Positions 41,987-47,087 of a stretch of DNA of 64,000 nt are shown in pieces (within the stretch, counting starts at the first letter, position 1; the number at the start of each line of letters is the position of its first letter). This DNA is from an uncultured Mycoplasmatota bacterium. Its GTDB lineage: Bacteria > Bacillota_I > Bacilli_A > RF39 > UBA660. The notes under the pieces are model-generated. The model searched no databases. It saw only the letters and a list, made by a program, of their open reading frames with translations, and was not told the origin of the DNA. Where the stretch lies: positions 62,001 through 126,000 of the forward strand of contig CAOJEH010000004.1 in NCBI GenBank assembly GCA_948434005.1, given 5' to 3'. A program made the position numbers and the translations under genes.

Positions 41987-43693
41987 TTATTTTTGTAATG
42001 TTTTATAATAATCATTATCCTTTATTAGTGTTTTATGATTACCTCTACCAACTAAACGACCTTTATCAATAACTAATATATCATCAGCTATTTTCATTAA
42101 ACTAGGCTTATGTGTAATCATTAAAATAGTATGATCTTTCTTTAAATCTTTTAATATTTCCATAACTTTTTTAGATGTATTAATATCAAGAGATGATGTA
42201 ACTTCATCAAATAATAATACTTCTGACTTTGAAAGTAATGTTCTAGCAAGTGCGATTAATTGTTTTTCTCCGTTAGATATATTAGATGCATCACTAACTA
42301 ATTTAGTATTATATCCATCTGGTAGACTCATTATATAATCATGAACACCCGCCCTTTTGCAAGCCTCTTCTTGATTCTTTTTATTAGAATCAACTAAATT
42401 CAAGTTTTCCCTTATACTCATATCAAATATAAATGGTTTTTGAGTAACAATTGAAACATTAGAAGAATAAACCTCTTTTGTATAATCATATATACTTATA
42501 TCATCTAATAAAATGCTACCTTTACTGCATTTATAGAGTCTAAGTAATAATCTAAATATTGTAGACTTACCACTTCCACTCTTTCCTACTATAGCAGTAA
42601 ATGAATTAGGTTTTATTTTAAAACTAACATTCTTTAAGATCTCTTCCCTATCATAGGTAAATGATACATTTGTAAAATCTATTTTACCATCTATAAAATC
42701 TTCATCTACATTACCAAAATTCATAATATTTTTATTTTTATAATTTAATAATCTATAAATTCTATCTACACTTATAGATTCTTCTGACATCCCATTTAAT
42801 TTTGCAAATGTATAATCAATTCTCTCTTCAATAGCTTCAAAATAACCTATAACTAATACTAGTGTTCCAACTTTATATTGACCTTTTAATATTAAATATA
42901 TTGCTATAAAATAGACTAATACCTTACCAAAAGTTAGAATCATAGGTGAAAGAACTATAGATTTATCATAGTATTTTCTCATAGGAAAGAAATTTTTTCT
43001 CCAATTCTTCTTACTCTCTTCTAAATACTTCGATAAGTCCTCCTTCATATTAAATGATTTAACTTCAATATTACCATCCAATACTTCACCCATAAGTTCA
43101 GAAATATCATCATTATATTTTCTTTCTTTTTCTAAATAATAGTCTCTTAACTTTAGATTTTTACTAATAGATATAAAATAAATTATAAGAAGGATAAAAG
43201 TAATAATCCCCATATAAATACTAACTGAAGAAAGAATTATTAAAGAAATAGTAATAGCAGTAATATAACAAATAATATCAAATAATTTATCAGGTATTTG
43301 CATAGCTTCTCCTACGTCTTTAAAAGCTGTATTTACTATAAATGAAGACTTAATGTTTTTAGAAAAATCCTCATCATAAGAAGTTACTTTATCAAGAATT
43401 AATTTTTGTAGTTTATTATGAGTATAAACGGCATGATTACCATAGGCTACATAGTTAGAATGATGAAATACTACATAAAGCAAGCTACAACCTAAGAATA
43501 CTAATACATACATATAAGCACTATTAAAATCCTTTGTAGTTACAGCATCTATTATCTTAGATGCTACAAGAGGAATAGTAAGCATCATCATACTTCTTAA
43601 AAATCCAGATAATGCTAAAAGAAATAAATGCTTTTTACTATTAGCACCCAAAGAAAAGTATTTTTTAGCTATTTTAATATATCTCTTAATCAT
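41987..43693 (-). CDS. ABC exporter half-transporter A (degenerate signature motif)
   Basis: A 568-residue permease-ATPase fusion with six helices in about 1-300. Walker A is VGKSGSGKST and Walker B VLLFDEVTSSLD with the catalytic Glu, but the signature reads NISNGEKQ instead of LSGGQ. ATG 43693 has a GGGGTG SD and overlaps the upstream gene by eight bases. It almost certainly pairs with the 43686 product: the degenerate signature here faces that partner's weak Walker B, giving one active and one impaired ATP site as in TmrAB/TM287-288-type exporters. The substrate is unknown. Confidence 0.9.
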   Translation of the reverse strand: MIKRYIKIAKKYFSLGANSKKHLFLLALSGFLRSMMMLTIPLVASKIIDAVTTKDFNSAYMYVLVFLGCSLLYVVFHHSNYVAYGNHAVYTHNKLQKLILDKVTSYDEDFSKNIKSSFIVNTAFKDVGEAMQIPDKLFDIICYITAITISLIILSSVSIYMGIITFILLIIYFISISKNLKLRDYYLEKERKYNDDISELMGEVLDGNIEVKSFNMKEDLSKYLEESKKNWRKNFFPMRKYYDKSIVLSPMILTFGKVLVYFIAIYLILKGQYKVGTLVLVIGYFEAIEERIDYTFAKLNGMSEESISVDRIYRLLNYKNKNIMNFGNVDEDFIDGKIDFTNVSFTYDREEILKNVSFKIKPNSFTAIVGKSGSGKSTIFRLLLRLYKCSKGSILLDDISIYDYTKEVYSSNVSIVTQKPFIFDMSIRENLNLVDSNKKNQEEACKRAGVHDYIMSLPDGYNTKLVSDASNISNGEKQLIALARTLLSKSEVLLFDEVTSSLDINTSKKVMEILKDLKKDHTILMITHKPSLMKIADDILVIDKGRLVGRGNHKTLIKDNDYYKTLQK

Positions 43694-45428
43694 TATCAAA
43701 CACCCCTATCCTACTTGGAGATTTTCTAGATTGTAACATCTGATATATTTCATTACTATTTATAAGTTTATTATGACTACCTATATCTACTATCTTTCCT
43801 TTATCCATAACTGCTATTACATCTGCTTCTCTCATCAACTCAGGTTTTTTAGTAATCATTATAATAGTATGATCACGTTTTAAATCTTTAATAAGTTTAG
43901 GAACAAGTTTTGCTGTATCAGGGTCTAGTGACGTTGTAATATCATCTAAAAGTAATACTTCACAATCTGTAAGTATCGTTCTAGCAATAGAAATCATCTG
44001 TTTTTGTCCACCCGAGATATTACTTCCATTTTCTCTCAAAATAGTATTATATCCATTTGGAAGCGAATCTATAAAATCATGTATTCCTGCTCTTTTACAA
44101 GCTTCTATTTGATTTTTAATATTAGTATCTACAAAGTTCAGATTTTTTCTAATACTCATATTAAATATAAAAGGTCTTTGAGTTACAACTCCAACATTTT
44201 TTGTATACCCTTCTTTAGAAAAGTCAAAAATATTAATATTATCTAATGTAATTTTTCCTCTACTAGGTCTATTAAGTCTTAATATTAAATTAAATAATGA
44301 AGTTTTACCACTTCCTGCTTCACCTACTATTGCAACTACTTGATTATGATTAACCTTTAAATTGATATTTGAAAGTATTTTGTTATTATTAATTTCAAGT
44401 GATACATTCTTAAATTCAATTGCACCATAAATATCATTAGTTTCAATATCACCAAATACATAATCACTAGAATTATAATTTAGGATATTATTTACCCTGC
44501 TAACAGAAGTATTAATTTCTCTTAAATCTGCAGTTGCAGAGGTTACATCATCTATATAAACACCTAGTTTTTCATGATAAGTTATAACTAATATTAAAAT
44601 ATTTAATTCAAAATAACCCTTAGATACTAAGTAAATAAGTACAGCATATAAAATCACTCTAAATATATACATAAGCAATTTAAAATCATTATCTCTAACA
44701 GTAGCATAATGTCTTTTAGTAGTATACTCTTTAGTAAACTTTTTTTGAATTAAATTTAATTTATCTTTAAGTTTATCTAACATATTAAATGTTTTAATTT
44801 CTTGAAGTCCTAGTGCTATTTGAGTTAATAAATTACTATACTTATCATCTTGTATAACTACTCTATTATGATAAAAATTAACCTTTCTATCTGAAGTATT
44901 TTTAATACCTATATATAAAATTACATATAAAACAAATATTAAAGATACATATATATTGCAAAAAGCTATAATTACTAATACAACAATTAGTTGCACTAAA
45001 CCTGTAATAATTTCTATAATAGAATCATTAGCATCTCCAATATTTATAATATCAGAATCTATAGAATTCATTATTCTACCTTTACTAATAACTCTAGTAA
45101 AATTATTATCTACAGTAATTAATTTATTTAAAACCTTAGTAGCTAATTTATCATAACAAAGATTAACATTATAAGCATATATCCTATAATTAATATATAA
45201 AGATAAATAATGAAGTAAATAAACTAATGTAAATATCCCTAATGATATATAAGTCATTTTATCATTACCAAGTGTTAAATATCTAATTATCTCTGATGCT
45301 ATTAAAGGTAATAATATTTCAAATCCTTTATAAAAAATTGCAGATAAAAGATTTATTACAATATACTTAGTTTTCATTTCAGCTAATTTTAAATATTCTT
45401 TAATAAAATAAATATATTCTCTTATCAT
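43686..45428 (-). CDS. ABC exporter half-transporter B (Walker B Glu to Asp)
   Basis: A 580-residue permease-ATPase fusion. Walker A is VGEAGSGKTS, the signature NISGGQKQ is intact, and Walker B reads VLLLDDITTSLD, where the catalytic Glu is Asp. The H-loop position reads MITKKP rather than ITHKP, so His is also lost. This marks the non-catalytic site half of a heterodimer with the 41987 product. It overlaps that gene by eight bases and follows the MFS-like gene after nine, so the three form one operon. Confidence 0.9.
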   Translation of the reverse strand: MIREYIYFIKEYLKLAEMKTKYIVINLLSAIFYKGFEILLPLIASEIIRYLTLGNDKMTYISLGIFTLVYLLHYLSLYINYRIYAYNVNLCYDKLATKVLNKLITVDNNFTRVISKGRIMNSIDSDIINIGDANDSIIEIITGLVQLIVVLVIIAFCNIYVSLIFVLYVILYIGIKNTSDRKVNFYHNRVVIQDDKYSNLLTQIALGLQEIKTFNMLDKLKDKLNLIQKKFTKEYTTKRHYATVRDNDFKLLMYIFRVILYAVLIYLVSKGYFELNILILVITYHEKLGVYIDDVTSATADLREINTSVSRVNNILNYNSSDYVFGDIETNDIYGAIEFKNVSLEINNNKILSNINLKVNHNQVVAIVGEAGSGKTSLFNLILRLNRPSRGKITLDNINIFDFSKEGYTKNVGVVTQRPFIFNMSIRKNLNFVDTNIKNQIEACKRAGIHDFIDSLPNGYNTILRENGSNISGGQKQMISIARTILTDCEVLLLDDITTSLDPDTAKLVPKLIKDLKRDHTIIMITKKPELMREADVIAVMDKGKIVDIGSHNKLINSNEIYQMLQSRKSPSRIGVFDND

Positions 45429-45437
45429 ATTACACCT

Positions 45438-46619
45438 CTATTTAATAGCTTCCTTTTTCCTATAATAAATTAATAAATAGGAAAATGCCATTTGAAAAAT
45501 CATAAAAAATGCAGATAATCCTAACATACTAGGAAGACCATAATTATAAGTAATTCCTGCAAAGAATAATCCTATAGCCTCACCAATCATAGAAATTAAA
45601 TATCTAATATCAGCAAAAAATAACTGATACTTTTTATCTATTCTATTAATATATGGAGCCTCAATAATATTCTCATAAGCAGTAGATATTAATATAGACC
45701 AAGTAATTGCAATAAATACTACTAAAAGACTATTAGATAAAAATGCTAATAAATAAAATAAAAATCTAATTCCAAATTTTATACTTACTGTAATATAATC
45801 GTTTTTTGGTGTTAAATATTTTAAAGCAATAATTCCTATAAAATCAGCAACTAATCCAATAAGTAATAAATAAGTAGTCGCACCACCATCTGAAAATTTT
45901 AACCCGTTAGTTAACATTAACATTTTTAAGCCTAATCCTGTGGACATTGCAATATGGCTAGTTAACATATACATTAAAGATAATCCATTAATTTTATCTT
46001 TAAATAAATATTTAAATGAAATACTAGAATTTACTTTACCTACTTTAACTTTAACAGTTACAAATACCCAATATGATATATAAATAAAAATAATTGCGAA
46101 GAAAAGACAAATATTATAATTAATTGTTAAATGAAGTAATTTTTTGCCAATAAATAAACCCCCGAGTAAAATACCAACATCCATAAACAAGTATTCTACA
46201 AGTTTTCTTTTAGAATACATTGTATCACTTACTTCTATTGTTATAATAAATGGATAAATACTAGATATAATAATTTTTTCTAAAACAACATCTAAAATAA
46301 TTAAAATATCTACTAATAATTTTATATCTGTATGATGAAAAAGTTTTAATAAATATAGAAAACACATTACAATAATTTTGAAAAATAACATCTTTCCTAT
46401 AAACTTTTGTATATTATTAAGTTTTAGTTTTATCGCACACATAAAAAGAGCAATTGCACTAAAAAAGGCACCTACACTTAAGACATTACTAATTTGTTCT
46501 ACTAAAAAATTATTATCTTGCAACCATAATTGTCTAAAATTACCCCATAGTCCTATTCCAATACTAAAGAAAGCTAGTGCTATTAATATTTTAGTTTCTA
46601 CTTTATGTTTTTTTCCCAT
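45438..46619 (-). CDS. Major-facilitator-like membrane protein
   Basis: A 393-residue protein with about 11-12 hydrophobic helices and an MFS-like order (LWGNFRQLWLQDNN after helix 1, a central basic loop near SKRKLVEYLF, and VKVGKVNSSISFKYLF in the middle). Motif A is not clear, so the assignment to the superfamily is moderate. It is the first gene of the operon with two ABC half-transporters; ATG 46619 follows TAGGTG. An efflux or uptake role with those exporters is inference. Confidence 0.72.
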   Translation of the reverse strand: MGKKHKVETKILIALAFFSIGIGLWGNFRQLWLQDNNFLVEQISNVLSVGAFFSAIALFMCAIKLKLNNIQKFIGKMLFFKIIVMCFLYLLKLFHHTDIKLLVDILIILDVVLEKIIISSIYPFIITIEVSDTMYSKRKLVEYLFMDVGILLGGLFIGKKLLHLTINYNICLFFAIIFIYISYWVFVTVKVKVGKVNSSISFKYLFKDKINGLSLMYMLTSHIAMSTGLGLKMLMLTNGLKFSDGGATTYLLLIGLVADFIGIIALKYLTPKNDYITVSIKFGIRFLFYLLAFLSNSLLVVFIAITWSILISTAYENIIEAPYINRIDKKYQLFFADIRYLISMIGEAIGLFFAGITYNYGLPSMLGLSAFFMIFQMAFSYLLIYYRKKEAIK

Positions 46620-46676
46620 ACAAAACACCTACACTACTCTATACTAATAATTATAACTTATCAATTATTATTTCAA

Positions 46677-46698: not shown

Positions 46699-46837
46699 CA
46701 ATTATTTACACATATTTTTATATATTAAAAATTTAAATTAATTATAAAATTATCGATATTAAAACAAATGCTTGATATAGTATCTTTGGAATATTTAATC
46801 GTTGAGTGCTTGCCAACTTTCATGTGAAAGGAGGCTG

Positions 46838-46927
46838 ATGATATGCATAAGAAAGATTTTTTTGCTTCTTTCTCTTATTCTGATTATCTTCCTACTCATA
46901 GCCTTACTTTTTACTTTTGTAATATAG
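46838..46927 (+). CDS. Candidate type I toxin: 29-residue hydrophobic peptide
   Basis: A short frame encoding a peptide that begins MICIRKIFLL and continues as one membrane helix (LSLILIIFLLIALLF) to FVI. It resembles Ibs/TxpA-class type I toxins in size and character, not in sequence. SD AAAGGAGG (46827-46834) is only 3 bases from ATG 46838. The same SD is 8 bases from ATG 46843, which opens a different 41-codon frame (to 46968; MHKKDFFASFSYS...). Which frame is used is unresolved. The SD is partly paired in a CTTTC-ATGT-GAAAG hairpin. An antisense RNA covers the 3' part. Confidence 0.45.
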   Translation: MICIRKIFLLLSLILIIFLLIALLFTFVI

Positions 46928-46940
46928 TAAACTATCATAA

Positions 46941-47051
46941 GAAAAAAGCACTCAATTTACTTTCGTAGATTAAGTGCTAACCAAATCTTTGGTGAACACT
47001 CAACAAGGAAAGGTTAAGTATTCCCTTTTTATTTTATGCAAGTTTCCCTGA
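46941..47051 (-). ncRNA. Candidate antisense RNA antitoxin
   Basis: A promoter at 47059-47087 on the minus strand would start an RNA near 47051. It ends at a strong terminator formed by AGCACTTAAT / ATTGAGTGCT followed by six T at about 46941. The transcript, about 110 bases, is antisense to the 3' part of the plus-strand peptide mRNA, as in TxpA/RatA-type pairs. An internal ACCAAAGATTTGGT hairpin is visible. Confidence 0.55.
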
Positions 47052-47058
47052 CATATTA

Positions 47059-47087
47059 ATAATAGCATATAAATCTTTCTTTTACAA
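47059..47087 (-). promoter_or_regulatory. Promoter of the antisense RNA
   Basis: -35 TTGTAA (47082-47087) and -10 TATTAT (47059-47064), 17-base spacer, on the minus strand between the UDG-like gene and the terminator at 46941. Confidence 0.6.

Follow-up and report, generated by a model that had tools for sequence, protein, structure and literature searches.

Between positions 46753 and 47087 of the window (the whole 64,000-nucleotide stretch that was analysed), in a short intergenic gap, lie two convergent predicted transcription units, a short mRNA on the plus strand and an antisense RNA on the minus strand. The original prediction, a candidate type I toxin-antitoxin locus, was built on a Shine-Dalgarno (SD) site, two short plus-strand frames, a minus-strand promoter and a hairpin followed by a T run, all of which are present where it had placed them. 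The elements that we recognise at the locus are as follows.

46753-46781, plus strand: toxin promoter, -35 TCGATA, 17-base spacer and -10 TATAGT (pattern match; position and spacing as in the TTGTAT-17-TATAAT of relatives)
46762-46773, unstranded: LexA-box-like operator AAACAAATGCTT, one mismatch to AAACAAATGTTT (12.1 bits with the lexA/recA-promoter matrix)
46788-47039, plus strand: predicted toxin mRNA, from G46788 to a U-rich end at about 47036-47039
46788-46816, plus strand: 5′ arm of the end-to-end helix (folding, covariation)
46801-46810 with 46946-46955, plus strand: alternative pairing of the 5′ arm (folding, covariation)
46817-46830, plus strand: local hairpin CUUUC/GAAAG over the beginning of the SD site (folding)
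46827-46834, plus strand: SD site AAAGGAGG (sequence; conserved in alignment A2)
46838-46927, plus strand: 29-codon frame from ATG 46838, holding the hydrophobic toxin segment LLLSLILIIFLLIALLFTFVI and out of phase with the homologous start
46843-46968, plus strand: 41-codon frame from the homologous start ATG 46843, out of the toxin frame from the T run 46857-46863 on
46857-46863, plus strand: run of seven Ts, site of the frame break (alignment A2 column 91; pairwise comparison with L152/L195)
46941-46978, minus strand: antisense terminator hairpin and U run (folding, alignment)
46941-47052, minus strand: antitoxin antisense RNA, read from 47052 to 46941, about 110 nt (covariance model R1, folding)
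46989-47024, plus strand: 3′ arm of the end-to-end helix, directly before the mRNA U tract (folding, covariation)
47036-47052, minus strand: antisense 5′ hairpin CAGG-GAAA-CUUG, family consensus CAAGGAAACUUG (folding, alignment)
47059-47087, minus strand: antitoxin promoter TTGTAA-17-TATTAT with TG before the -10, an extended -10 (pattern; equivalent promoter in relatives)

The predicted overlap of the two RNAs is about 46941-47039, so that the antisense RNA covers the 3′ half of the mRNA. The adjoining minus-strand region (41987-46628) encodes two ABC exporter half-transporters and another multi-helix membrane protein, apparently unrelated to the locus.

As a bare sequence pattern the locus is unconvincing. 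The stretch is AT-rich, and the 23 promoter-like matches found in 2 kb are near the expectation from shuffled sequence (17.3 +/- 4.6), while a simple terminator scan of the same 2 kb returned no terminator. We accepted the locus as real because of its folding and its comparison with relatives.

In the window's own genome, a DNA search turned up further full-length copies that are 70-71% identical, along with many partial matches; each of the 9 genus genomes searched, this one among them, contained relatives. With the conserved 5′ end of the antisense RNA as anchor, we gathered 37 copies. Full-length members share one order of elements: -35 and -10, a start about 7 bases after the -10 (GGAA, GGGAA or GGATA), a leader, the SD site and a hydrophobic frame of 25-30 codons, then the antisense terminator, the 3′ arm, the U tract and the convergent antisense promoter. 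The search for related loci that the original prediction had proposed therefore yielded a conserved peptide frame, a conserved antisense promoter and terminator, and compensatory changes. Its single candidate stands as a locus; that this is one copy of a multicopy family, and that it carries a LexA box, had been missed.

Matches to the covariance model R1 (E <= 0.01) occur in 72 of 98 genomes sampled across the taxonomic family, with up to 20 per genome; in the sample from the order they occur in 138 of 193 genomes, every one within that same family and with 1 to about 20 copies each. Outside it, the class and phylum samples gave two single matches only. The own genome (G000) has 15 matches, of which we count 11 as distinct loci: those at the end of contig C1 recur in mirrored order on C9, probably because one contig is redundant, and copy counts there are to be halved. 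The relatives come from metagenome assemblies of uncultured Bacilli and Clostridia, mostly from gut and rumen.

The antisense RNA (47051-46941) has a folding z score of -4.7. It scores 95.1 bits with R1 over 46942-47052 on the minus strand, in a model built from the relatives plus the window copy, which is one of its 25 training sequences; by this score the antitoxin gene of the window copy appears intact. Compensatory double changes are seen at 11 of the 20 pairs in the consensus structure of antisense alignment A1. The proposed minus-strand promoter and terminator bounding an RNA of about 110 bases, themselves predicted features, have conserved equivalents in the relatives. No named family had been recognised at the outset, and Rfam, Pfam, NCBIfam and PADLOC indeed gave no match: Rfam 15 gave nothing at the gathering threshold and chance matches only at permissive ones (best permissive hit an unrelated family, E 0.42), and searches of the peptides against Pfam, NCBIfam, PADLOC and PDB were negative, for peptides so short and hydrophobic that assignment by sequence search is not feasible. 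In many copies (for example L002, L003, L024 and L031) an imperfect inverted repeat of the ACGACTT...AAGTCGT type, with varying arms, overlaps the antitoxin -35, as a possible terminator or operator; it is absent from the window copy. A CIRCE-like reading of the terminator stem was dropped because other subfamilies are without it.

The sense RNA (46787-47036) has a folding z score of -5.9, with its ends paired. The earlier suggestion that GTTGAGTGCT can pair with both AGCACTCAA and ACACTCAAC held: this pairing belongs to a 28-pair helix whose 5′ strand begins with the first nucleotide of the predicted mRNA, and covariation is seen for either alternative. The closure of the mRNA from end to end by this long-range helix had been overlooked. 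In 28 of 28 copies, pairing sets in at nucleotide 1 to 3 and joins the first bases to those immediately preceding the U tract. The helix region comprises 17-29 pairs; 22 of 280 shuffled controls reach 17. From this onset within the first three bases, together with the position of the -10, we infer the mRNA start at 46788. In alignment A2, compensatory changes occur in 20 of the 28 helix pairs and 87.9% of cells pair; a covariation score of 0.452 compares with 0.08-0.15 for slid and 0.246 for shuffled controls. The scored structure is that of the window copy, which favours these values somewhat. The alternative, in which the same 5′ element pairs with the arm beside the stop codon, is the one that RNAalifold independently prefers, with compensatory changes in 6 of 8 pairs. 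Because both pairings show compensatory changes, the 5′ element stays complementary to two partners, which would fit a folding switch between the nascent and the full-length mRNA. The SD site, which had been described as lying partly in a local hairpin, is predicted to be mostly paired in 24 of 24 copies, and the hairpin at 46817-46830 folds over its beginning.

Hydrophobic peptides behind an SD site are conserved in at least five diverged subfamilies (MNKKDFLILSLVILIFLLVLLLFIVLI-like, MTKREFSLFIIILLLFLVVIILLLK-like, MRKQEKYLCSIIILLIIVILIILIKIVPTV-like, MKTKTFVVKVLKLIAIILFLLIIMIVVIKK-like and MKKKDLLISFLILIIILLVVSIMILCIKK-like). Substitutions are mostly silent, with a mean dN of 0.16, a mean dS of 1.02 and a mean dN/dS of about 0.16 in subfamily A, and mean dN/dS of about 0.13-0.5 in the others. 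These ratios, well below 1, indicate that the peptide of the family is under purifying selection.

The window copy departs from this pattern. Its frame from ATG 46838 gives a hydrophobic product of 29 aa (MICIRKIFLLLSLILIIFLLIALLFTFVI), and its frame from ATG 46843 a non-hydrophobic one of 41 aa. The former had been proposed as the toxin, with its gap of 3 bases between SD and ATG named as the weak point. Both frame and gap are as described; as a toxin start, ATG 46838 is not likely, and the homologous start is ATG 46843. In L152, from another genus, the equivalent of this start leads in frame through a 27-aa hydrophobic peptide. One extra T in the run 46857-46863, found in the window copy only among the 24 aligned mRNAs of A2, places the hydrophobic stretch in the ATG 46838 frame. 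By comparison with A2 and L152, the awkward spacing would therefore come from this run: either the window toxin is frameshifted or the draft assembly is wrong at 46857-46863. The type I reading of the original prediction accordingly holds for the family of loci and only in part for the window copy, whose toxin frame appears broken.

Furthermore, the -10 TATAGT is weaker than the TATAAT of the relatives, and this and the operator mismatch suggest decay of the toxin arm, pointing the same way as the frame break. The window copy thus appears to be a recent casualty with its antitoxin gene intact. We lean slightly towards regarding it as a relic that has lost a working toxin and kept its antitoxin, now perhaps an orphan still able to silence related copies in trans. 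Other orphan-like antitoxin loci (L012, L035, L037 and L042) agree with a relic; against it count the possible assembly error in the T run, the intact copy from another genus (L152/L195) that is 91% identical to the window copy across 334 bases, and the high score of the antitoxin with the family model. This question concerns the window copy only and is compatible with a type I family, intact copies of which occur elsewhere in the own genome. Lesions of the toxin arm together with a good antitoxin score are also seen in L012, L026, L042 and L048, in a sample anchored on the antitoxin and hence open to ascertainment bias. At L012 (G000:C7:45000-46100), L035, L037 and L042, antitoxin RNA genes stand with the toxin part truncated or replaced; these may be orphan antitoxins with a silencing effect in trans on related copies.

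Next, we consider the toxin promoters. The lineage has LexA and RecA, and its lexA and recA promoters carry AAACATTTGTTTG and AAACAATTGTTCG. With a matrix made from these promoters alone and a cut-off of 8 bits, a box was found in 42 of 70 toxin promoters versus 0 of 37 antitoxin promoters and 0.8% of shuffled promoters, the copies sharing ancestry so that the promoter matches are not independent events. All 42 boxes lie 26-28 bases before the start; that of the window lies at 26, and its score corresponds to p ~0.001 per shuffled promoter. The strict box RAACAWWTGTTYG is confined in the entire own genome to recA, lexA, two toxin loci (L002, and L003 on both duplicate contigs) and one additional site; genus-wide it is also found before ruvA (gene read by eye) and many toxin genes. 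From the placement of these boxes, SOS control of toxin promoters appears well supported. A strict LexA box at G000:C7:45482 (L200:1501) stands beside a gene that resembles by eye a DUF1848-type protein, next to an orphan antitoxin; the gene is possibly a further SOS gene.

About 40% of the sampled toxin promoters are without a LexA box, and some instead have a different element, TTGTTCGMTTGYTW, upstream of the toxin promoter, which defines a second promoter class. Six matches to it occur in the own genome, all at toxin loci of the family (G000 C1:309439, C1:309802, C3:149125 and C6:94414, with duplicates on C9), and the reversed control gave none.

Many single-helix peptides of this size are regulators, and purifying selection and SOS boxes are compatible with such a role too. 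The product could then be a non-toxic, stress-induced small membrane peptide regulating a transporter or enzyme, its antisense control being incidental. We consider this unlikely: up to about 20 paralogues per genome with diverged subfamilies, toxin arms broken beside intact antisense arms (window, L012, L026 and L048) and a double lock on translation are all typical of toxins.

The genes beside the sampled loci are varied and mostly ordinary, with no common function. A uracil-DNA-glycosylase-like gene neighbours the window copy; we take it to be incidental because only 2 of 80 loci around that gene's relatives hold a copy. Phage and plasmid collections and viral contigs contained no relatives, apart from a few short, partial plasmid matches. 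L152/L195 adjoins genes resembling by eye those for a relaxase, a holin and an endolysin. L152/L195 and the window copy match at 91% but have unrelated flanks, which suggests that copies can move between genera. At L056:5382-6546, four antitoxin-model matches about 350 bases apart on one strand form a tandem array. A MITE-like non-autonomous mobile element would also be multicopy and dispersed, and its imperfect terminal inverted repeats could mimic an end-to-end helix of an mRNA; the unrelated flanks between genera and the several copies in a row in L056 are in keeping with this. We nevertheless judge it highly improbable, because compensatory changes keep the pairing while the subfamily sequences diverge, the peptide is under purifying selection, the conserved promoters are external to the repeats, and the sampled loci have no transposase as a shared neighbour.

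Taken together, peptide conservation, promoter elements, covarying RNA structures and box positions, all read from sequence, point to a lineage-specific type I toxin-antitoxin family (probability about 0.85), in which a membrane peptide would be encoded by a folded-shut mRNA, countered by an antisense antitoxin and often linked to the SOS response through the toxin promoter. The sense transcript would encode a single-helix membrane peptide of 25-30 residues, presumably toxic, and the primary transcript would be folded shut, with its SD site in a hairpin and its 5′ end paired with its 3′ end. The antisense RNA of about 110 nt, presumably made constitutively from its own promoter, would pair with the 3′ half of the mRNA, presumably leading to decay by an RNase III-type double-strand RNase. 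With the LexA box at about 60% of sampled toxin promoters and at no antitoxin promoter, DNA damage would raise the mRNA above the antisense RNA and so release the toxin. A more far-reaching reading, which we put forward tentatively, is that type I toxins triggered by the SOS response have multiplied and are diversifying across a whole family of uncultured gut Bacilli. The second class of toxin promoters would answer to another regulator of its own, implied because every TTGTTCGMTTGYTW match in the own genome falls at a locus of the family, and related copies would be buffered in trans by orphan antitoxin RNAs.

We file the loci as a new, previously uncatalogued family that belongs to the known type I kind and combines its features in an unusual way. 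Apparently new here is that the LexA box of lexA, recA and ruvA also stands at many toxin promoters of a multicopy type I family. Genomes of 1-1.5 Mb that carry up to about 20 copies, together with rich natural covariation, make the family a ready data set on how toxin mRNAs fold shut and how antisense specificity diverges; a connection of DNA damage with dormancy or death in these uncultured gut bacteria also becomes testable.

Multicopy chromosomal type I families are familiar from E. coli (ibs/sib, ldr/rdl and hok/Sok), and the 5′-3′ pairing of the mRNA resembles that of hok, whereas the antisense geometry and sequence of these systems are unlike those of the present family. To our knowledge, none of them is SOS controlled. 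Among open-licence literature we found no report of LexA-controlled type I toxins for a Gram-positive relative or for this lineage. LexA boxes have been described for E. coli tisB, symE and dinQ (PMC5848175, PMC4147584). The pairs tisB/IstR-1 and dinQ/AgrB share with the family a single-helix peptide of 27-29 residues, a LexA box at the toxin promoter only, an RNA antitoxin and a structured mRNA (PMC8309996, PMC4147584, PMC5848175); IstR-1 and AgrB, however, come from genes adjacent to that of the toxin and base-pair with the 5′ region of the latter, whereas the family antisense is cis-encoded and overlaps the 3′ half. The C. difficile pairs, CD0977.1-RCd11 and relatives, likewise occur several per genome in a Gram-positive gut bacterium, but have toxins of 34-47 residues, are prophage-borne and use sigma-A and sigma-B promoters, with LexA/SOS not mentioned (PMC7699646); the loci of the family are instead scattered among ordinary chromosomal genes. 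In B. subtilis, bsrG/SR4, txpA/RatA and yonT/SR6 are convergent pairs overlapping at their 3′ ends with antisense RNAs of about 100-120 nt, and yonT/SR6 also has extended -10 promoters; they differ in their longer toxins, LexA control is not described for them (PMC5848175, PMC4147584), and the family is without an Rfam match. Judged by its elements, the family would thus combine a TisB/DinQ-like way of working, with a short peptide and LexA at the toxin promoter only, with the 3′ overlap of bsrG/SR4 and txpA/RatA.
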